This document shows, piece after piece, positions 12,207 through 34,147 of a DNA stretch of 64,000 nucleotides. Numbering within the stretch: the stretch's first letter is position 1; every line of letters begins with the position of its first letter. The stretch is taken from assembly GCA_029061255.1 (NCBI GenBank), contig JAIDSL010000101.1, forward strand, positions 1-64,000. Direction: 5' to 3'. Under the pieces are notes generated by a model, which saw only the letters and a list, made by a program, of their open reading frames with translations, was not told where the DNA came from and ran no database searches. The position numbers were made by a program, and so were the translations under genes. Source of the stretch: Muribaculaceae bacterium (GTDB taxonomy: Bacteria > Bacteroidota > Bacteroidia > Bacteroidales > Muribaculaceae).

Positions 12207-13406
12207 TTATTCCGGAAGCTTTTTGTTGGTGATGGCGCAGACGCAGGAGTCTGACCAGACGTTTTCGGATGTCTCCACCATATCGATTATAGTATAGATG
12301 GGGAGGATGATACCCATCATGCTGATGTTGGCTCCTATGCCCGACATAAGCGACAAAGTGAGGAAATAGCAACCCATCGGCACTCCGGCATTTCCCACGG
12401 CAGAAATCACAGATATAAAGAGCCACAGGATCATAGTGCCCCAACTGAGTTCCATACCATTATTTTGCATCACAAAGAGAGAAGTGCAGAGGATGAAGGC
12501 TGCGCAACCGTTCATATTGATAGTGGTGCAAAGAGGGAGCACAAAGCGGGAGATTTTCTTTCTCACACCGAGGCGTTGCTCGGCATTCTCCATAGTGACC
12601 GGAAGCGTGGCGGCACTGCTCTTGGTGAAAAAAGCCATCAATACAGCCGGCATCATGCCACTGAAGGTCTTTATCGGATTAATACCGGAAAGAAGCAAGA
12701 AAATCGGAAGCACCACAAACATCTGCAGAAGATTGCCTGAAATGATCACAGCCACATATTTTCCCAGCGAATCAGCCATCACCCCGGCTCCTGCCTCCGC
12801 TATCAACTGAGCGGCAAAGGCAACAATGCCAATCGGAAGAATCGCGATAAGCCAGCGGATAAGGGTGAAAAGGATTTCCTGGATTCCGGCAAGGCCGTTT
12901 ACAATTATCTCCTTCGGCCTTGACTCCGGCATACGGGATATAGCAATTCCGACTGCAAAACATATTATAAGCAATGCAAGCACATTTCCTTCAAGAAGCG
13001 GACGGACGATGTTGTCGGGCACCACCGACATCACATGGTCGGAATAAGAGGCCTCAGCCATAGGCACATCGGCAGCCTGCTCAGCAGAAACCGCACCGGC
13101 AGGAATATTACCGGGGCGGATAAGAAGATAGAGCCCGAGGCCTAATGCAGCTGCCGAGAAGGTTGTGAGCAGTGTATAGGTGATCGACGTGCGAAAAATC
13201 TTTCCAAGTTCCTTGCCCCCTCCTAACGAAGCAAGAGTTGTAATCACTGCAAGAACTATCGTAGGCACAGCGAGCAGCCTGAAAAGACGGGTATAGATAG
13301 TGGCTATATAATTCATCACTGTGTCAATGGCATGGATATGGAGCAGCCCTAATACTACACCGACCACCAAGGCTCCAAGCCAAATGAAAATCTGCTTCTT
13401 GTTCAT
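12207..13406 (-). CDS. Dicarboxylate/amino acid:cation symporter (DAACS family)
   Basis: TM protein; FTKSSAATLPVTMENAEQRLGV, TINMNGCAAF motifs of the glutamate/serine-Na+ symporter family. Confidence 0.88.
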   Translation of the reverse strand: MNKKQIFIWLGALVVGVVLGLLHIHAIDTVMNYIATIYTRLFRLLAVPTIVLAVITTLASLGGGKELGKIFRTSITYTLLTTFSAAALGLGLYLLIRPGNIPAGAVSAEQAADVPMAEASYSDHVMSVVPDNIVRPLLEGNVLALLIICFAVGIAISRMPESRPKEIIVNGLAGIQEILFTLIRWLIAILPIGIVAFAAQLIAEAGAGVMADSLGKYVAVIISGNLLQMFVVLPIFLLLSGINPIKTFSGMMPAVLMAFFTKSSAATLPVTMENAEQRLGVRKKISRFVLPLCTTINMNGCAAFILCTSLFVMQNNGMELSWGTMILWLFISVISAVGNAGVPMGCYFLTLSLMSGIGANISMMGIILPIYTIIDMVETSENVWSDSCVCAITNKKLPE

Positions 13407-13426
13407 ATTTTATTATTTAAGTGAGA

Positions 13427-13476
13427 ATGCATAATTCATAATGCATAATGCATAATTGTTAGTCTCTGAAATTCAG
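13427..13476. repeat. TGCATAAT repeat array with 'attgttagtctctgaaattcag' tail
   Basis: Direct reading. Confidence 0.85.
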
Positions 13477-13704
13477 AAGATATAAACATTTATGCAAATA
13501 TATATTTGATTTGATTAGTTACTTACTTTTTTATATTAACAAAGTTTAAGATGTTTGTTTTGTGGCCTTGTAATGTTTTTTTAATCGAATGTAGCGGAAT
13601 TGTATTGATTTTGCAGTGAGAAGGTAACAAATAAGCCTTAAATTTGCACATCGAAAGATAATTAGTGAAAGATTTCAGGTTGCGATTTTTTAATACCTCT
13701 TACC

Positions 13705-15648
13705 ATGTACAACACTTCCACAAAGACCCTGACAACATGGGTCGCCATATTTGCTTTCTTTTCTATCTGCACGTGTTCATGCGTCGAAGAGGTAGAAATC
13801 GCATCGCAAAAGCCGACGGCAGAACAACAGCTTTCAGCCGAAGAAGGGATTCTCCACCTCAGGATTCCCTCGCTGAGCGCCAGGACCTCAGCGACCTTAA
13901 CATCCATCGACCTTTTTCAGTTTTCAGATGGAGTATTCGTGAAGAAAATGACAGTAGACCCTTCAAAAGACAACGTTGTAGAATTCCCAAGAAAGCCCCT
14001 GACGAGAATCTACGCCTTGGCAGGATATAAAGTGGAAGACACTCAGAAAATCTCTGAAAGTCTCTTATCAGCGATGACGATACCTGTTCCGAAGGATTCC
14101 TACTCAGCTCCTGTCTTCTTTTCTTCCGTCACCGACATACAGAATGGAGCCGACAACTTGGACATAGAACTGCATCGGGGAGTTGCGAGGCTTGACATAG
14201 ACAACGAGGATTCCGAACTGAAGATAGAAAGGGTCAACATATCGGGCGCGGCCTCCATCTCGCAGATCTTCACAACAGACGGATGCACAAGCGGCACAGC
14301 ATCGGCCAACTATTCCAGAACATATGAATCCGGGATCAATGGAATGGAGGAAAACGCTTTCGTCCTTTTTGAGACCCAGTCTCCGATCACAGTGACAATC
14401 AGTGGCAGGCGCAACGGAGAGGCAGTGGAAATTATCTCAGAGACTCCCGCCATCACCCGCAATTCAATCTATACAGTCTTGATCGACAAGGAGACAACGT
14501 CCAATGCCATGGGGCGCACATTATCTCACGACAGCGACGAAGGACTCCCCACGGCAAGCATAAAGGTGAGAGCCTGGGTGGAAGGAGACAAGGAAAAGGG
14601 ATCGCTTGATCTTGAGGAGTGTGCAATAGATATCCAAAGATCATCCATTCCTTCGGAAGTGAGGGTCAACACCGAAGACAATACGATCACCGTGCCGGCT
14701 TGCGGAGTGATCGGAATGAAGATTGCCTTCACTACCGCTACCCCACTCAAATTAGGTTCCGTAGTCTCCAATACGAATGGAGTAAGCATCACTCCGGCAG
14801 CTCCCATAGCCACCGACGGGGGATACATTTCAGAATTCATCATTGACGTTGAGAAGCAGCCCAAGGGCGCGAAACAGTATCAGACTACGGTTTTTTTCAA
14901 TGGCTCATCAAGTTTCTTCATCAATATCGAGGTGGAACCCTCCCCATTTCAGATTCCTACAGTGCATATCGGAGGCCACGACTGGATGTGCTTCAACGCT
15001 GTCTCCCGGGATACGGAAGAGCAAATCTATCTTCCCAAAGGAATGACCGCCAAGGAAATGTATCGTGATTGCTTCGAAGATTGCATAGGGAACCTGTTTC
15101 AATACGGCAGACCTAATCCTTTCTCCCACTGGAAAGCCTACGATCCAAACATGCTTGCCGACCAAAAAAGAGACACGCCATGGCAGACAAAGTCGATGAT
15201 GCCTCTTCCGAAGGGCTATCACGTTGCATCGGCAGAAGAATGGGAAGACCTGATACCAGCAGGCACAGTGATCCCGGCATCTTACAGGACCCGCACAGGC
15301 GACTCGATACGTGCTTCAATCGTAACCGCTCCGGATATACTCGACAATACTCCTTCGGCAGCCACAAACGGTCAGAAATATCTAAAACGTGGGGTGCTTT
15401 TCGAATCCATCACCACTGGCGCCAGACTCTTTCTTCCGATGGCGGGCATCAAGACCAATACAAGCAGCGAGATCCCGACTGACCCGAAATTCAGATTCGA
15501 CACGAGAAGCGGATACTGGATGAAGGAGAAGAACCAAGTGATGATCCTTCAATATGAAAAGACAGGAGAAGACACATACGGAATCAAGTTCGAGCGTAAA
15601 AGCTGGAATGAAGACGGATTCGTGATGGTGAGAGGGATTAGGGATTAA
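13705..15648 (+). CDS. FimB/Mfa2-like fimbrial anchor lipoprotein with FISUMP-like C-terminal domain
   Basis: Lipobox CTCSC; Mfa2-like N-terminal half; C-terminal HDWMCFNAVSRDTEEQIYLPKG...NLFQYGR...LPKGYHVASAEEWEDLIP resembles FISUMP-type domains. Confidence 0.65.
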   Translation: MYNTSTKTLTTWVAIFAFFSICTCSCVEEVEIASQKPTAEQQLSAEEGILHLRIPSLSARTSATLTSIDLFQFSDGVFVKKMTVDPSKDNVVEFPRKPLTRIYALAGYKVEDTQKISESLLSAMTIPVPKDSYSAPVFFSSVTDIQNGADNLDIELHRGVARLDIDNEDSELKIERVNISGAASISQIFTTDGCTSGTASANYSRTYESGINGMEENAFVLFETQSPITVTISGRRNGEAVEIISETPAITRNSIYTVLIDKETTSNAMGRTLSHDSDEGLPTASIKVRAWVEGDKEKGSLDLEECAIDIQRSSIPSEVRVNTEDNTITVPACGVIGMKIAFTTATPLKLGSVVSNTNGVSITPAAPIATDGGYISEFIIDVEKQPKGAKQYQTTVFFNGSSSFFINIEVEPSPFQIPTVHIGGHDWMCFNAVSRDTEEQIYLPKGMTAKEMYRDCFEDCIGNLFQYGRPNPFSHWKAYDPNMLADQKRDTPWQTKSMMPLPKGYHVASAEEWEDLIPAGTVIPASYRTRTGDSIRASIVTAPDILDNTPSAATNGQKYLKRGVLFESITTGARLFLPMAGIKTNTSSEIPTDPKFRFDTRSGYWMKEKNQVMILQYEKTGEDTYGIKFERKSWNEDGFVMVRGIRD

Positions 15649-15697
15649 TTCATAATGCATAATTCATAATGCATAATTGTTTGTCGCTGAATATCAG
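15646..15697. repeat. TGCATAAT repeat array with 'attgtttgtcgctgaatatcag' tail; starts at a stop codon
   Basis: Direct reading. Confidence 0.85.
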
Positions 15698-15738
15698 TGG
15701 AAACCATTTTTAGGATATTATATTAATGATATTATAGA

Positions 15739-17613
15739 ATGAAGGTCATGAAAAAAAATATATACACGATATTGTCTGCTATAGCTCTGGTTACGGCATC
15801 TTGTCAGGATGAATTTTTGACTGACGACTTTGCCCCATCAAAAGGGATGGGAATTACTTTCCATATCTCAGTTCCGGCGAATGAGCCGGATGGCACTACA
15901 CGCGGCGAGGCTGCGGATGAGCAAGCCATAAGCCTCCGCTATCTTATTGCCGATGCAACAGGCAAGGTGTTGGATCATTGCCATGGTCAACTCTCAGAGA
16001 GCCTCGATCGTCTGAACATCAGCGGCCTTGAAGCCGGCAACTATTCTTTGGTCTTCTTAGGCAGCTCCTGCGAATCGGAACTCGCTCATATAGAAGAACC
16101 CGCGACTCTTGACGAAACATGGCTTCAAAACACTGTTCTGTCTCTCCCCATAGAAGGATCATATTTCTTCAAGAAGATAGATTTCACGTTGCGAGAAATG
16201 ATTGAGCCGAAAGAGTATGAGGTGATCCTCGAGAGAGCGCTTTCGAGAATAAAGATAGAGTTCCCGGGGCTTCCCTCCGCTGTGGAAACCATGATATCAA
16301 GCGTGACGGTAACGCTCGACGAGGGCTGCCATGTGTATTCCTCCGTCAACGCAGACTGCAGATACACAGGCGAAGCCACGATCAGCAATTGCGAGGTGTG
16401 CGACTCAAGCTTCAACCTTATGCTCAATACCCTACCTTCAGCCACTCCCCTATCGGGGACCGTAAAGGTCAAGAGCGGCTCTCTTTCAGGCGACTCAATC
16501 TGCACATCCTATCGCTTCTCCGACCTCACTGCGGAAGCAGGGAAGGTCAACAGGATCTCGATAGCCCTGCGTCATCCGGATTTCAAGACAGGCTTCATCC
16601 ACATCCGCCCACAAGACTATATCCACTTCGATGCCGACCTTATGCTCATGGAAGACGAGCCACTCGACATACTTCACGATATCGACCTTCGACACTTCAA
16701 TATCACTGAGCCTCTCGCATTGAAGACCTACAAGAATCAGCTCCGTCTTCAACTCTACTCCGCCGCCCCGGCAGCCAACGTGGATATCTACGCCAATTTT
16801 CCCTCTTTAGGAGTCGACAGCGTATGCCTGGCACACCTCGACAAGGTAGAGGCACTCCTTGACATGGCAGTACCTATGACCTTCACAAAAAGGGAGGCAC
16901 AGTATCTCGACATCCACGGAAAGCGCGTCACCCTTCCCAAGATGGACATTCCCTCCGACATCGAGTGGTTTGTAAGGACAGACGACCCTTTTCTGACCAG
17001 AATGTCAGGGCTTAGCCTGAAGAAATGGAATGTAAGCTTCTACGACTGGGAATCATTATGGCCATCAAAGGCTATCGCACCCGACCCCAAATGCATGAGG
17101 CACGCTATGATACAGATGATAAACCTGGCCATTACTCTCGATTCAGACGAGTTTGCACAGGAGCTCGCCGCCCACAATGGACAGTATATCGATTCAGACA
17201 CATACCTTTCAAATGAAGAGATCGTCGATAGAATCCACAACTGCTACGACTGCTGCTACGGCATTGGAGCCACCAATCCATCATGCCACAACAACGGCTG
17301 GGGTGGAGGATGCCATTCCGGCATAGTCTCAATGATCGTCAATCAGGAATATTACGCTGCGATGTATCCTACAGAAGACCCTGACATCGCCTGCAACAGG
17401 GAGCGCGAGTGTTTCTATCACGAATATTCACACTGCCTCGGCTTTTCCCACGACGGCAACATGACTTATGGCGGAGTCTGGACCAACACTGTCGGTGCGG
17501 CCTACCTCAAAGCCCATAAGGCAGGAAAGATCTTCTTCTATTCTCCAGCCTTCATTGACAATCTTCCTTACAGGCGTGCTGAAGCTCCGAAATGGGCGGC
17601 ACAGAAAAGATGA
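15739..17613 (+). CDS. FimB/Mfa2-like lipoprotein with C-terminal metzincin-type zinc metalloprotease motif
   Basis: Lipobox ASCQDE; Mfa2-like N-terminal region; C-terminal HEYSHCLGFSH matches HEXXHXXGXXH. Confidence 0.7.
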   Translation: MKVMKKNIYTILSAIALVTASCQDEFLTDDFAPSKGMGITFHISVPANEPDGTTRGEAADEQAISLRYLIADATGKVLDHCHGQLSESLDRLNISGLEAGNYSLVFLGSSCESELAHIEEPATLDETWLQNTVLSLPIEGSYFFKKIDFTLREMIEPKEYEVILERALSRIKIEFPGLPSAVETMISSVTVTLDEGCHVYSSVNADCRYTGEATISNCEVCDSSFNLMLNTLPSATPLSGTVKVKSGSLSGDSICTSYRFSDLTAEAGKVNRISIALRHPDFKTGFIHIRPQDYIHFDADLMLMEDEPLDILHDIDLRHFNITEPLALKTYKNQLRLQLYSAAPAANVDIYANFPSLGVDSVCLAHLDKVEALLDMAVPMTFTKREAQYLDIHGKRVTLPKMDIPSDIEWFVRTDDPFLTRMSGLSLKKWNVSFYDWESLWPSKAIAPDPKCMRHAMIQMINLAITLDSDEFAQELAAHNGQYIDSDTYLSNEEIVDRIHNCYDCCYGIGATNPSCHNNGWGGGCHSGIVSMIVNQEYYAAMYPTEDPDIACNRERECFYHEYSHCLGFSHDGNMTYGGVWTNTVGAAYLKAHKAGKIFFYSPAFIDNLPYRRAEAPKWAAQKR

Positions 17614-17771
17614 CGAGACATAAGAAAAAAAATGTAAAAATGCATATTTTTAGCATACTGTTGTAAGTTATTGAAATTTAAATTATTCCAAATGTTATAA
17701 GTTTTGTGTATCTACAATTTGACAATCTTAAATGTTAAAAATACATATAATAACATCAAAAAAGATAGATG

Positions 17772-17807
17772 TTTATTGCAAAATCTAACAAAAAATTAGT
17801 ATCTTTG
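17772..17807 (+). promoter_or_regulatory. Putative promoter for the DUF3575/fimbrial operon
   Basis: TTTATTG then TATCTTTG (17800-17807) in an AT-rich 280-nt gap. Confidence 0.5.
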
Positions 17808-17892
17808 CACCCAATTTACTTAGAACCTTTTTTAGAGAGACACCTATTTAATAATTTATAGCCTTGTCCTGATTCAAGGGACATCATGAATT

Positions 17893-19236
17893 TTGAAGAT
17901 ATTACTTACATCCATATTAACGGTAATTATAGCCATTTCAGCCTTCGGGGAGATGCCTGCCGATTCGGTAAAGGTGTATTTCCTTGCGGGTCGTCGGCTT
18001 TTTGACCCTTCCCTCGGCAACAACGGGGAAGTTATGGATCGTTTTATCGAAAAAGTAAAGAAGGCAAAAGCTCAGGACAACATCAACTTCCTCACAGTCC
18101 GTGGCTATGCTTCTCCTGAGGGTGCCAGCGACGCCAATCAAAGGCTCTCCGGCCTTCGCTGCGATGAGATAGCGAAATACATCAGGCTCAACGCAGGCAT
18201 CGACAGCAAGCAGATCGAGACATTTGCCAATGGTGTGGCTTGGGAGGAACTACGCAATCTTGTGGCGAAGCATCCAGAGATGCCATCGCAAGAGAGAGTG
18301 CTCTATATTCTCGACCACACTCCCCTTTGGGTATATAACCGAGAGAAAACAAAAATCATCGACGGCAAGAAAAAGCAACTCATGGAGCTGTCAGGTGGAC
18401 GCGTCTGGAACTGGATGATGGAAAACCTCTTCCCGGAGCTTCGCAATGCAGTGGCAGTGGTGCTCTATCTTAAGCACAATGAATATATCCCTATAGCTTC
18501 TGAGAAAACCACTTCTCCCACCGATAGCTCTTCTGATATAGTTGAAAATACGACTGACATAATAGAAGATGCAGCCATACCGGAGCATCCAGACTCTGTC
18601 GTTTTAAATGTCACAGATGTCATGTCAGCTCTTGAAGGCAAAATCATATGTGTCACGGCAATGCCGAAGCCATTCTACATGGCAGTCAAGACCAATATGC
18701 TTTATGATGCAGCATTAGTGCCAAATATCGGAGCAGAATTCTATCTTGGCAAGAACATCTCGCTCTATGGGGAATGGATGTATGCATGGTGGGACAACAA
18801 CAACCGTCACCGCTACTGGCGCGTCTACGGAGGCGACCTCGGATTGCGCTGGTGGTTTGGGAAAAAGGCACAAGCCAAACCCCTTACAGGTCATCATCTC
18901 GGCATCTACGGAGGGATCCTGACATTTGACTTCGAGACGGGAGATACCGGCTATCTCGGAGGAAAGCCCGGCGGCACGCTATGGGACCGATGGCTCGTCA
19001 ATTCAGGCATTGAATATGGCTACTCGCTTCCCATAGGGAAACACCTTAACATAGATTTTTCCATAGGATTAGGATATATGGGAGGAAACTACATAAAATA
19101 TTATCCATTTGACAACGACTACTATCTCGACAAAGAATATAAAATGCATTACTTCGGCCCTACAAAGGCCGAGATATCTCTCGTATGGCTCATAGGGCGC
19201 GGCAACACCAACAGCAGGAAAGGAGGTGACAAATGA
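17893..19236 (+). CDS. OmpA-like / DUF3575 outer-membrane protein of fimbrial loci
   Basis: N-terminal OmpA-like NFLTVRGYASPEGASDANQRLSGLRCDEIAKYI; C-terminal DUF3575 pattern FYMAVKTNMLYDAALVPNIGAEFYLGKNISLYGEWMYAWW. TTG start. Confidence 0.85.
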   Translation: MKILLTSILTVIIAISAFGEMPADSVKVYFLAGRRLFDPSLGNNGEVMDRFIEKVKKAKAQDNINFLTVRGYASPEGASDANQRLSGLRCDEIAKYIRLNAGIDSKQIETFANGVAWEELRNLVAKHPEMPSQERVLYILDHTPLWVYNREKTKIIDGKKKQLMELSGGRVWNWMMENLFPELRNAVAVVLYLKHNEYIPIASEKTTSPTDSSSDIVENTTDIIEDAAIPEHPDSVVLNVTDVMSALEGKIICVTAMPKPFYMAVKTNMLYDAALVPNIGAEFYLGKNISLYGEWMYAWWDNNNRHRYWRVYGGDLGLRWWFGKKAQAKPLTGHHLGIYGGILTFDFETGDTGYLGGKPGGTLWDRWLVNSGIEYGYSLPIGKHLNIDFSIGLGYMGGNYIKYYPFDNDYYLDKEYKMHYFGPTKAEISLVWLIGRGNTNSRKGGDK

Positions 19237-20216
19237 AGACTCTTTTCCATAAATCATCTTCAATAGCACTTGGGATGCTGTTTCTTATTGCGGAGGGTTG
19301 CACCCACAAGGATCTTAACGAAGATGCCCATACTACCCTTGCCGACAATGTCGAGGTGATATTCGACTGGAGCAAGACTCCTGCTAAAGAGGCAAAGACC
19401 ATGGTGCTCTACCTCTATTCTGATGAGCATGAAATGATGGACTACCGCTTCAACAATCCTGACGGGGGCACGATCCGAACATACGCCGGGCCGCATACTG
19501 CAGTCTGCCACAGCAACGACGACCCCTACGGGCATCACCTGCGTGCCCAGGACTCACACGACGATATCGAGATATATACCGACGAAACGGGCATACTCGT
19601 AGGGCAAGGTATTTCCACGAGAGGAATTCCGAGAGCGAAAGGCACGGAAGACGAGCCACTGAGGGAAACACCTTCGATGATCTACGGCGCTCAGAACAGA
19701 GAAGTGAATCTAAAGGTGTCTGCCCTCCCCCAGAAACTCGCACTCTTCCCGGAAGAACTTATATGCCGCTATTCGGTAGAATTCGTGGATGTCGAAAACC
19801 TCAAGAGTGCCGATCTACGCATAGACGCCACAATCTCCTCGCTTGCCGGAGGATATTATCCCGGAAGGATGAAGCCTAACTCTGAGGCTGTCTCGCACAC
19901 CTTTACACTGACTGCCAACCTTGACAATAATTCACTGAATACGGTGTTCTATACATTCGGGCTTCCTGAAGGCGAAGAGAAGGACCACAAGATATGCCTA
20001 TACATAGCCTTGAAGGACAGAACTGGAGCCTTCTACACATTTGATGTCACTGACCAGGTGAACAAGGCTCCCGATCCGCGCAACGTCAGCATAAAGATCT
20101 ACGGACTCAAGCTACCCGAGATACCTGACGACCCCCCAAAACTCCCGGATGGAGAAAGTGGCTTCAGCATTGAAGTCGACACCTGGGACACTTATCATTA
20201 CGACCTGAAGGTGTGA
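19233..20216 (+). CDS. DUF5119 / FimB-Mfa2 superfamily lipoprotein
   Basis: Lipobox EGCTHKD; position after the DUF3575 gene with 4-nt overlap; overall DUF5119-like pattern. Confidence 0.75.
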   Translation: MKTLFHKSSSIALGMLFLIAEGCTHKDLNEDAHTTLADNVEVIFDWSKTPAKEAKTMVLYLYSDEHEMMDYRFNNPDGGTIRTYAGPHTAVCHSNDDPYGHHLRAQDSHDDIEIYTDETGILVGQGISTRGIPRAKGTEDEPLRETPSMIYGAQNREVNLKVSALPQKLALFPEELICRYSVEFVDVENLKSADLRIDATISSLAGGYYPGRMKPNSEAVSHTFTLTANLDNNSLNTVFYTFGLPEGEEKDHKICLYIALKDRTGAFYTFDVTDQVNKAPDPRNVSIKIYGLKLPEIPDDPPKLPDGESGFSIEVDTWDTYHYDLKV

Positions 20217-30241: not shown

Positions 30242-32224
30242 ATGGATAAATACAAAATAAATATTCTGCGTGCACTTGCAGCAATATTGCTTGGTGTCGG
30301 TGCAGCCTCATGCTCTCAGGAAGACTTCGAACGGGGCAGGGCGTTGCCGGCAGGTCAATATCCGTTGGATTTTACCGTTTCCGTTGAAGGTTTACATACA
30401 CGCGCTAACGGTAAGACAGCTTGGAATAATGGGGATAAAATAGGAGTGAAAATTGGGTCTGACACCGAAGTAGGATGCTACACTTTAGACTCCAACGGGG
30501 ATGTAAACTATCAGAAATCAGAAAAAATACTTCACTGGAAGACTTCTGCCTCTACCACAGTCAAAGCATGGTATCCTTACGCACCTCAGACCAATGATTC
30601 GATTAAAGATCAGTCGAAACTGTCAGATTTTACTTCAATCGACTATCTCGCTGCCACTGCCGAAAATCAGAGTTACAAGAATACGGTAGGCTTGACTTTC
30701 AAACACCAGATGGCCAAAGTAAGATGTGATCTCAAAAGCGCAGATGTGGGAATCATACCCTTGGATACGTTGGCTAATGCCAAAGTCACCTTCAAGGGCT
30801 GCACCGTAGCCTCATTTGTCGATGGTGAGCTCACCGGGAGTGCTTTCGGGGATATTACCCCGGTCAAAGACTACCGCTCCCATGAGGCCCTGCTTGTGCC
30901 GGCCGACATGACAGGTAAAGAACTGTTTCGGATTGATTTCAAAGTGGGGGGCTATGACAAAAGCTTCAGCTACATCCCGGATGGCGATTTTGCAAACTTG
31001 CAGCCGGGGACATCGTATTTTTTCACCGTAACCTTGAGCCGAGATGAGATGGTTGTCAACGCCATCTCTGCCTCTTGGGAAGGTGAAAAAGAAGATATAA
31101 TATCCGATCAGATACCCCTGAAACTATATTTCTCTAATGATCAGACTCGAGAAATTTTTGAAAATTACGCCGAGAATGTTTATTGGGATTATGGGGACGA
31201 GTGTTATAAATCACAAGACAACACCTTCACCATCAGCCTCACGCTTGATCCTGACGGAGAAAACTTTATGAAGGGGTTTAACGTGACAGATGGCATAGTA
31301 TCGGTCAACCGTGTCAGGGTTGAGGACCGCCATGTGTTCACATTCAAGGCGCTTAGCGAAAGTGTGTGTCTTGAATATGGCGATTACGTGCAGCCGGGAG
31401 ATTTTCTATACTCCAACGGGAAGTGGCGCCCTGACATAGTAGGTGTGGACCTAAATATCGGCGGCAATGACGACGGCGAAAATGACGAAATCGATGGTGA
31501 AGAAGTCAAAGGTGAAAGCGGCAATAAGAACAACTTCAGTGGCTATGGCTACGAAGATTCTGAAACGTGGGAGTGTATCGGCGTCGTTTTCAAGGTTGGC
31601 CCTGGCAATGGTGATTCACCGGATAATTACGATATGCTGGAAACCATCCACGGCTATGCAGTGGCCCTTCACGACGTTTCGGCCCCTGACGAAATCGGCA
31701 ACTGGGGTGGTAGTCTTGAAGGTAATGTTAAAGATGCAGAAGCGGCAATTGGATTATATGATAGTTTTACCGATCTTTACAATGGCTATACGAATACTCA
31801 GAAAATGTTGCCAATCGCTGCCGCAAATACGAAAGCAATAGATAGATTCGAAGAGCCTGCTTATTGGGCATTTTACAAGTTGAATGACTATAATAAGGCT
31901 GTGAAAGTGCCCGAATCCGCAAGCCCATGGTATCTCCCTTCCATCGGACAACTCTACGACCTGTATAAATTCTCCGGACGACGCGAGCGCCTCTTAATGG
32001 CAGGCGGTGAGGAATTCATATTGAGTGACGTGGGAATTTTTCCTCCCGGATCGATGAAATATGACACATTCGGCGCAAAATACTGGTCATCGACTCAGCA
32101 CACAAGGGACATGGCATGGGTTTTCAGATTTCAGGGCGGTAAAGTTGATAAATTGACCAAGCTTGGGGTGTCTTTTAGTAGCCGGAGCAGCCTAAGTCGT
32201 GCCCGTGCGGTTTTGACATTCTAA
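30242..32224 (+). CDS. Fimbrillin lipoprotein with DUF1566-like C-terminal domain (candidate tip adhesin)
   Basis: ASCSQED lipobox; fimbrillin pattern (TFKHQMAKVRCDLKS); C-terminal PWYLPSIGQLYDLYKF...YWSSTQHTRDMAWVFRF...SRARAVLTF. Confidence 0.75.
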   Translation: MDKYKINILRALAAILLGVGAASCSQEDFERGRALPAGQYPLDFTVSVEGLHTRANGKTAWNNGDKIGVKIGSDTEVGCYTLDSNGDVNYQKSEKILHWKTSASTTVKAWYPYAPQTNDSIKDQSKLSDFTSIDYLAATAENQSYKNTVGLTFKHQMAKVRCDLKSADVGIIPLDTLANAKVTFKGCTVASFVDGELTGSAFGDITPVKDYRSHEALLVPADMTGKELFRIDFKVGGYDKSFSYIPDGDFANLQPGTSYFFTVTLSRDEMVVNAISASWEGEKEDIISDQIPLKLYFSNDQTREIFENYAENVYWDYGDECYKSQDNTFTISLTLDPDGENFMKGFNVTDGIVSVNRVRVEDRHVFTFKALSESVCLEYGDYVQPGDFLYSNGKWRPDIVGVDLNIGGNDDGENDEIDGEEVKGESGNKNNFSGYGYEDSETWECIGVVFKVGPGNGDSPDNYDMLETIHGYAVALHDVSAPDEIGNWGGSLEGNVKDAEAAIGLYDSFTDLYNGYTNTQKMLPIAAANTKAIDRFEEPAYWAFYKLNDYNKAVKVPESASPWYLPSIGQLYDLYKFSGRRERLLMAGGEEFILSDVGIFPPGSMKYDTFGAKYWSSTQHTRDMAWVFRFQGGKVDKLTKLGVSFSSRSSLSRARAVLTF

Positions 32225-32236
32225 AAGAATTTAAAT

Positions 32237-34147
32237 ATGAACAGACTGATTTTACCATATATTTTTATCCTTTCCTGCTTTCTATGTGCGTGTCAAGATA
32301 TAGATGACATTCCTACACAGGCAGGTAAAGTTGATGGAGACATAATTTCGCTCAACGTCACTGTTGCCGACAATGTTAAGTCAGGCGATCCGGCCTCGCG
32401 TGCGATAGATGACGGCATTTATACAAATTTTGAGCAGGGCGACTCGGTCGGTCTCATCGTTCTCGACAAAGACGGCAAAATTATAGTGAATAATGCCAAG
32501 TATACTTTATCTGACCAAAACGAATGGAAATACCAGAGAATCGATAACGAGAGGCCGCCAAGTTACGACAGCGAGATGCACACCTACATCGTCTATTTCC
32601 CCTACGACGAGTCGGTGGCTGATGCAGTGGCTGATGCATATTGCAAGAGCGCTAAAGATATCTTGGACTTGGACGCCTTCAAGCAGCGGGACGACCAAAC
32701 GACTGAAGAAGCTTATCGCTACTCCGACGTGATGGCATGGGAGTCGTCCAACGGCCCTATCAAGAACATTAAGGCCGAACTGCAGCATCTGCGCAACGGT
32801 ATTTCGCTCGACATCACCGTCCGGTGGAAACTGCTCACTGTCGATCCCATACATTTGAAAGAAAATCCGTCAATAGATTACAGTAACGAAACATTAATCA
32901 ATTGGGATGATTATTATCCGGATGTCGAAGACGTCAGGGAGGTAGTCACCTTTAAGATTCCCGACGAGGCTGCCATTAAAGATAAGGATGGCAATCTTCT
33001 CATGACCCATAAGGCCAAGGACGGCACCTCCCGCTACATTCTCCCCGATGGATATGAGGGTGATATAACTTATTTCTACAACTATCGTGATTGGATGTAC
33101 AGAGGAGAATTCAAAATTCAACCCTCACAGACCGGCACACTCTATTCTAAATACGAGACCGTTGATAGGGAAGTTTACACCTTTGAGGAAGTGATTGTCG
33201 GTGATTTTTATTGTAAGAACTCCCAAAATCACGGCTTTGTCCTCCCTTACGAGGCTACCGAATACTTGGATAATGACAACCACCGTTGCATAGGACTGGT
33301 GTTGCACACAGGCCAACATGAAAACGATTATGAATATAACTACAGTGAAACAGGTATAAAAGATGATTGTTGCCATGGTTATGTCTTGGCGCTGACCGAT
33401 GTCCAAAATGACCTTGACAATGACCTTGACAATGACCTTGACAATATGTTTGAGTGGGAATTGAATGATTCCTACCTTCCGTTTGAAGACGAAAAAACAC
33501 GAGAACAACTACAGTATGTCGTCAATTTAGGTCCCGAAGATTGGAGCGGATATTACAATACTCATATGATTCTGGGAACCTGCGATGAGAACGAGTGGTA
33601 CAGAAATTATTATCCAGCTGTATACGCTGCATACTATTACGGCAATCTTGTCTCCGGGACAGTTGAAGTCAAAGACCCAAAAACTAATAAGGTATACAAT
33701 AAAAATATTCTATTCAATAATCGTGATGAATCCAATAATCGTGATGAATCCAATAATCTTGATGAATCGGAGGATGATAGGCCGATCAAAGGAGTTCCGG
33801 ATATAAACAATTCCTACGCATGGCAGGAACCTCTGCAGGCTCCTGACAATACATCAGGCTGGTACCTGCCGGGTAATGGCATGCTTGTTGAGCTTGGGCA
33901 ATATGAATCCCTTTTTGAGCAACGCTATAAAGAGATAAAAGAGAAACTGGATAATGACGTTCCCTACAAGGAACACATAGGTTGGATGAGATACCATCCC
34001 TCTTGGCGTGGCTATCCCTATTACTGGTCTTCCACCGGAAGTGAACATCCTGGACGAGCGTTATCACATGAATATTCCGAGCAGAACTATACTTATCCTT
34101 CTCACAAATATTTGCGATTCGCGGTGCGCGCGGTATTGTCTTATTGA
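32237..34147 (+). CDS. Fimbrillin-like lipoprotein with DUF1566-like C-terminal domain (candidate tip adhesin)
   Basis: CACQD lipobox; AELQHLRNGISLDITV; C-terminal GWYLPGNGMLVELGQY...YYWSSTGSEHPGRAL...RFAVRAVLSY. Confidence 0.72.
   Translation: MNRLILPYIFILSCFLCACQDIDDIPTQAGKVDGDIISLNVTVADNVKSGDPASRAIDDGIYTNFEQGDSVGLIVLDKDGKIIVNNAKYTLSDQNEWKYQRIDNERPPSYDSEMHTYIVYFPYDESVADAVADAYCKSAKDILDLDAFKQRDDQTTEEAYRYSDVMAWESSNGPIKNIKAELQHLRNGISLDITVRWKLLTVDPIHLKENPSIDYSNETLINWDDYYPDVEDVREVVTFKIPDEAAIKDKDGNLLMTHKAKDGTSRYILPDGYEGDITYFYNYRDWMYRGEFKIQPSQTGTLYSKYETVDREVYTFEEVIVGDFYCKNSQNHGFVLPYEATEYLDNDNHRCIGLVLHTGQHENDYEYNYSETGIKDDCCHGYVLALTDVQNDLDNDLDNDLDNMFEWELNDSYLPFEDEKTREQLQYVVNLGPEDWSGYYNTHMILGTCDENEWYRNYYPAVYAAYYYGNLVSGTVEVKDPKTNKVYNKNILFNNRDESNNRDESNNLDESEDDRPIKGVPDINNSYAWQEPLQAPDNTSGWYLPGNGMLVELGQYESLFEQRYKEIKEKLDNDVPYKEHIGWMRYHPSWRGYPYYWSSTGSEHPGRALSHEYSEQNYTYPSHKYLRFAVRAVLSY
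33407..33442 (+). repeat. 12-bp in-frame tandem repeat x3 (NDLD)
   Basis: aatgaccttgac x3. Confidence 0.95.
33716..33769 (+). repeat. 18-bp in-frame tandem repeat x3 (NNRDES)
   Basis: aataatcgtgatgaatcc x3, third copy with 2 substitutions. Confidence 0.95.

Follow-up and report, generated by a model that had tools for sequence, protein, structure and literature searches.

The gene that occupies positions 15739..17613 on the forward strand of the window, by which we mean the whole analysed stretch of 64,000 nucleotides from a Muribaculaceae bacterium, encodes a 624-aa protein, P0001, in which a supported metzincin-type zinc-protease domain follows an N-terminal module predicted to fold like a pilus anchor, and it forms a two-gene unit of its own with the gene of a FISUMP lipoprotein (13705-15648). 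We consider it fairly probable that P0001 is a surface zinc endopeptidase built on an Mfa2-like scaffold and acting together with the FISUMP lipoprotein. The catalytic family is not new as such, solved members being available; what appears to be undescribed in the literature that we searched is the joining of an Mfa2-like module to a metzincin core, the conserved FISUMP partner, and a clade of relatives in which the Met-turn methionine is replaced by phenylalanine.

The open reading frame (all window coordinates given here refer to the + strand) starts with a signal peptide and a lipobox, LVTASC22, followed by QDE (15739..15804), a tripeptide that resembles surface-export signals of the kind discussed in PMC6414381, in which acidic residues come after the lipobox Cys. 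Because most members of the family carry acidic residues at this place, P0001 would be an outer-membrane lipoprotein that most likely faces outward. The signal is followed by a Mfa2/FimB-like beta module supported by AF2 and Foldseek (residues about 36-283; 15844..16587), by an all-beta domain that, judging from the 9tpb matches and the AF2 model, lies within a conserved core common to the solved structure 9tpb (residues about 284-400; 16588..16938), and by the catalytic domain, delineated by homology to 9tpb, a profile and a domain model (residues about 405-610; 16951..17568). The latter includes an invariant GxGGG strand, GWGGG here and GLGGG elsewhere (residues 520-524; 17296..17310; alignments A2-A4), the zinc motif HEYSHCLGFSH (residues 561-571; 17419..17451) and the candidate Met-turn and tyrosine switch M575-T-Y577 (17461..17469). 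Taken from end to end, the translation combines the lipobox TASC22 with the motif HEYSHCLGFSHDGNMTYGG and with NMTYGG at residues 574-579.

The preliminary description had recognised HEYSHCLGFSH as an instance of the metzincin consensus HEXXHXXGXXH, a reading that is supported. The pattern HExxHxxGxxH occurs once in all six frames of the window, in P0001, and arose twice when this protein was shuffled 20,000 times. Across the 43 sequences of alignment A3, H561, the catalytic E562, H565, G568 and H571 are invariant, which argues that the motif did not come about by chance; W441, R454 and the G-x-GGG strand at 520-524 are invariant likewise. A sequence search of solved structures aligned residues 304-577 of P0001 with PDB entry 9tpb (E=3e-16), which its depositors labelled as 'Metallopeptidase' and 'metzincin', and a short relative from B. 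fragilis could be aligned with the same entry almost from end to end (E=4e-36). The profile of the catalytic domain (A4) retrieved 9tpb (E=1.7e-35) and HomA (9tpy; E=5.9e-12), followed by many metzincins, among them snake venom proteases, serralysins and collagenases, at about 1e-3 to 1e-1. Another HomA entry, 9tp2, has AAFSH in place of the HEFSH of 9tpy, as if the catalytic residues had been mutated on purpose; no paper describing 9tpb, 9tpy or HomA was found in the library searched. In one paralogue (locus L010, contig C73 of genome G014) the Gly of the motif is replaced by Asp (HEFAHCLDYSH), possibly the sign of a decaying copy. The F. psychrophilum elastase FP0506, which we had considered, was dropped, its own authors placing it with the gluzincins.

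General family models and structure comparison give a less clear picture. None of the Pfam or NCBIfam peptidase cut-offs is reached by P0001: in the Pfam scan Reprolysin_5 scored 16.7 bits against a cut-off of 27, and 20.4 bits with the isolated domain. The AlphaFold2 model of the catalytic domain (pLDDT 78) displays a metzincin-like order of helices and strands, but a Foldseek search restricted to this domain, in which the PDB was covered up to April 2026, gave nothing significant, zincins making up most of the 12 rows listed, all with E>4; perhaps this is because the domain had been cut from its beta partner and 9tpb was absent from that copy of the PDB. The Foldseek match being non-significant, the assignment to the metzincin fold is based on the homology to 9tpb.

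A further question concerns the Met-turn. M575 is located four positions past the third His, with three residues between, and Y577 two positions further; to our knowledge, this spacing is shorter than in any other metzincin. Among 67 motif-bearing relatives, counted after removal of one unrelated sequence match, the position of M575 is taken by Met in 23, Phe in 42, Leu in one and Ile in one, whereas the Tyr at the position of Y577 is kept in 66 of the 67. In related metzincins, a Tyr two residues after the Met functions as a 'tyrosine switch' (PMC11674741). The doubt originally voiced about this methionine, that it stands too close to the zinc motif to serve with certainty as the Met-turn, is justified insofar as the spacing is indeed very short and one clade has Phe; still, with its M-x-Y context and the nearly universal Tyr, M575 is the best candidate, and we regard its position as probably that of a Met-turn with an unusually short connection. 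The Phe-bearing sequences, in which the segment reads HSS[SA]FTYG (L040, L044, L058 and about 40 other loci), form one well-supported clade, clade B, whose nearest neighbour, L064, retains Met, and the change apparently stems from a single replacement. The same change, together with the fact that the model of the isolated domain resembles known metzincins poorly, could be taken to mean that these proteins are non-catalytic adhesins in which the metal site is retained for structure only; however, a purely structural site is expected to show losses whereas the catalytic Glu is invariant, and we hold this interpretation to be very improbable.

The suggestion that the lipoprotein has an Mfa2-like layout is confirmed at the level of the predicted fold. 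The full-length AlphaFold2 model (pLDDT 86.5, pTM 0.80) matches the Bacteroides adhesins 3pay (E=6e-8) and 3gf8 (DUF1812) and the P. gingivalis Mfa2 structure 5nfi (E=1.9e-6, prob 1.0, TM 0.48 by target length), over stretches of about 250-290 columns. We assign these matches to the N-terminal half, since everything after it belongs to the 9tpb-like core. The Pfam scan of P0001 matched no fimbrial anchor family. A 'Cys-rich domain', also proposed at the outset, fares worse: the run of C502, C505, C506, C516 and C525 exists, but C505 alone is shared with the closest orthologues (present in four of the five aligned), and none of the five cysteines beyond them. This lack of conservation is also why we reject the Cys stretch as a structural zinc site.

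The gene that shares the unit with P0001 encodes a lipoprotein of 647 aa whose C-terminal domain is FISUMP (Fib_succ_major; 13705..15648; Pfam PF09603); the domain scores under the cut-off in the window protein (E=1e-5) and over it in the homologue from locus L036 (1e-18). A Bacteroides-type -7 box, TAAATTTG at 13639..13646, is the probable promoter of this two-gene unit, its match to the consensus being weak and its -33 spacing poor. A FISUMP homologue adjoins the metzincin gene in nine of nine clade A loci from genome contigs and in the inspected Muribaculaceae whole-genome loci, often on both sides. Clade B comprises loci from Alistipes, Barnesiella, Bacteroides and Phocaeicola; here the gene 3' of the metzincin encodes a lipoprotein of about 750 aa, often followed by proteins of 300 aa and 760 aa, and a profile comparison relates this lipoprotein to the FISUMP partner (E=4.6e-31). 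Judging from gene order and this comparison, the pairing of FISUMP with the metzincin holds across two clades, A and B. Counting against the preferred interpretation, relatives outside these clades mostly consist of the core only or come with a beta-propeller-like protein, C-terminal or separate, and FISUMP is mostly absent from them. The N-terminus of the FISUMP partner has no detectable relation, in profile comparison, to the N-terminus of the metzincin or to the fimbrillins of the window, and for this reason we refrain from classing it as a fimbrillin.

The surroundings of the unit vary further. Several Muribaculaceae encode a protein of 1140-1280 aa 3' of the FISUMP-metzincin unit (L035:10075-13494, L111:12082-15762, L138:3-3851), which in L035 and L111 contains 13-14 CHB_HEX_C_1/Fn3_assoc repeats. 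Elsewhere (L085-L103; L082:2159-4168; L105:10939-13071), a C-terminal extension of about 380 aa or following lipoproteins show weak DUF5074/beta-propeller similarity. Among plasmids, one distant match was found, in Parabacteroides distasonis (NZ_OY725756.1:56177-57007; 27% identity over residues 283-577), and phage records contained no match.

The distribution of the family in gut Bacteroidota is patchy and accessory, as might be expected of a general surface protease that attacks nutrients or mucin and other host glycoproteins, in which case FISUMP would at most assist in binding and pili would not be involved. Glycan-degrading genes in some of the neighbourhoods and a weak similarity of four family members to Peptidase_M66 (best E 0.026) point in the same direction; but the M66 similarity is not significant and there is no SusCD pair adjacent in the window. 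We consider this a genuine possibility, albeit not the preferred one.

The remaining alternatives turn on the genes downstream. The fimbrial cluster starts about 280-340 bp 3' of the metzincin gene, behind a promoter-like site of its own, TTG-N21-TATCTTTG (17776..17807), which is of the Bacteroides type and is conserved in relatives. The sequence TAnnTTTGC suits a Bacteroides-type -7 box, and it is enriched in the window (22 occurrences versus 8.6 expected). The cluster opens with an OmpA/DUF3575 protein (17953..19236, with an alternative TTG start at 17893; Pfam DUF3575 E=1e-39), followed by a DUF5119 lipoprotein (19233..20216; Pfam E=2.4e-29), by seven consecutive fimbrillin-like genes assigned through Pfam (Mfa_like_1, PF13149; 20333..30175), and by two long fimbrillin-like genes, the first with an Lcl_C-like C-terminus of the tip-adhesin type (30242..34147). 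The metzincin gene had initially been described as encoded inside a fimbrial operon, a view that we cannot uphold since the gene lies 5' of the promoter-like site of the cluster. No terminator was found between the two units, and some read-through is therefore possible. A site of the 17776-17807 type is situated between both units in relatives as well, unbroken in locus L136 (genome G480) and located at contig ends in G012, G014 and G005. The closest relatives have their genes in the same succession as the window, from FISUMP and metzincin through the promoter to DUF3575, DUF5119 and the fimbrillins, without a break in L136, and contig C78 of G014 opens with the apparent 3' end of a metzincin gene; adjacency of metzincin and pilus genes is seen in the closest relatives only.

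The intergenic region has several features of its own. Relatives carry 7 to 10 consecutive G, a tract variable in length between genomes and missing in the window, between the metzincin gene and the fimbrial promoter (L119:3215, L121:3247, L002:228, L004:3468; seven G in L136 before the DUF3575 gene). Such a tract may be prone to slippage and tune fimbrial expression, and may also explain why contigs break there. The leader at 17820-17890 (GAGAGACACCTATTTAATA...GTCCTGA...GGGACATCATGAATTT), which lies between the fimbrial promoter and the DUF3575 gene, shows strong conservation in G014, G005 and G480; no Rfam family was matched by it or by any other part of 13300-18100. We also considered, and rejected, a promoter region that could invert between the metzincin and fimbrial genes, all that there is being a weak inverted repeat of 72%.

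Could P0001 then be a dedicated protease of pilus maturation or shedding, that is, an Mfa2-type anchor that trims pre-pilins or cuts the finished pili of the downstream cluster? The Mfa2-like fold of the N-terminal half would fit such a role, as would the gene order kept through the fimbrillins in the closest relatives. In the source genome, C25, the gingipain family, is matched once, by an ORF which we take to be sized like the secretion-system protease PorU, and there is no C11 protease. In P. gingivalis the pilins require proteolytic maturation (PMC11316588). Several observations run counter to this scenario. Apart from the separate promoter-like site, fimbrillins are found in 90 of 101 genomes of the genus compared with about 13 for the protease (14 with one marginal), and a second DUF3575/fimbrillin cluster in the source genome (contig C120) has no metzincin, indicating that the protease is dispensable for such pili in general. 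Furthermore, most relatives adjoin FISUMP lipoproteins and have no fimbrial genes nearby; in a Pfam tally of 50 other neighbours, no fimbrial family recurred among the first 25 of 111 families. Given the genus distribution, pilin processing is disfavoured as a general role of the metzincin, although the protein may still serve the adjacent fimbrial cluster, given that the two have stayed side by side in its closest relatives. As a dedicated function, we find pilus maturation or shedding unlikely; a protease-bearing anchor of gut Bacteroidales, whose Mfa2-like module would sit at the foot of the neighbouring type V pilus and whose metzincin domain would, independently of gingipains, mature, trim or shed pilins or else the FISUMP adhesin, strikes us as decidedly unlikely.

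Returning to the preferred interpretation, a surface endopeptidase that cooperates with a FISUMP lipoprotein could work as follows. The lipid on C22 would hold P0001 in the outer membrane, with the Mfa2/FimB-like module and the second beta domain serving as a stalk or for docking. Zinc would be bound by the C-terminal domain via H561, H565 and H571, E562 would act as the general base in the cleavage of peptide bonds, and M575 would provide the Met-turn, with Y577 as a possible tyrosine switch. The FISUMP lipoprotein might bind a ligand on the host, on the diet or on another cell, and the protease might then cut proteins brought close in this way, or else trim or shed the FISUMP protein itself.

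The implications are threefold. A protease domain appears here on a pilus-anchor-like scaffold, in a family whose link with surface lipoproteins of the FISUMP type extends through many gut Bacteroidota. The clade in which the Met-turn methionine seems to have been lost only once provides a natural test of the role of this residue. Finally, P0001 is one testable, if not favoured, candidate for the maturation of pilins without Rgp and Kgp in gut Bacteroidales.

Among known systems, the matrixins and adamalysins (M10, M12B) share with P0001 a short local similarity that is confined to the region of the zinc motif, with all scores below the curated cut-offs. The igalysins (M64; IgAse) are metzincins of gut bacteria, and 4df9 and 3p1v have a beta-sandwich ahead of the catalytic domain (PMC12237041), but their motif is HExxHxxxGxxD, with one extra residue and Asp as the third ligand, in contrast to the HExxHxxGxxH of P0001. 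Mfa2 (5nfi) and the DUF1812-type adhesins (3gf8, 3pay) are lipoproteins whose fold matches that of the N-terminal half; they possess no protease domain, whereas the gene of P0001 precedes the pilus promoter and its product matches no Pfam anchor family. HomA (9tpy, 9tp2) has a related catalytic domain with HEFSHTKGYTHNGNMTY but differs in its length of 487 aa, in insertions ahead of the zinc motif and in having no GGG run. Finally, although the protein solved in 9tpb/9tpc is 356 aa long and lacks the Mfa2-like N-terminal module, it has in common with P0001 the entire core of beta domain and catalytic domain, aligned over residues 304-577, with the HExxHxxGxxH-DGNMTY signature and the GLGGG strand.
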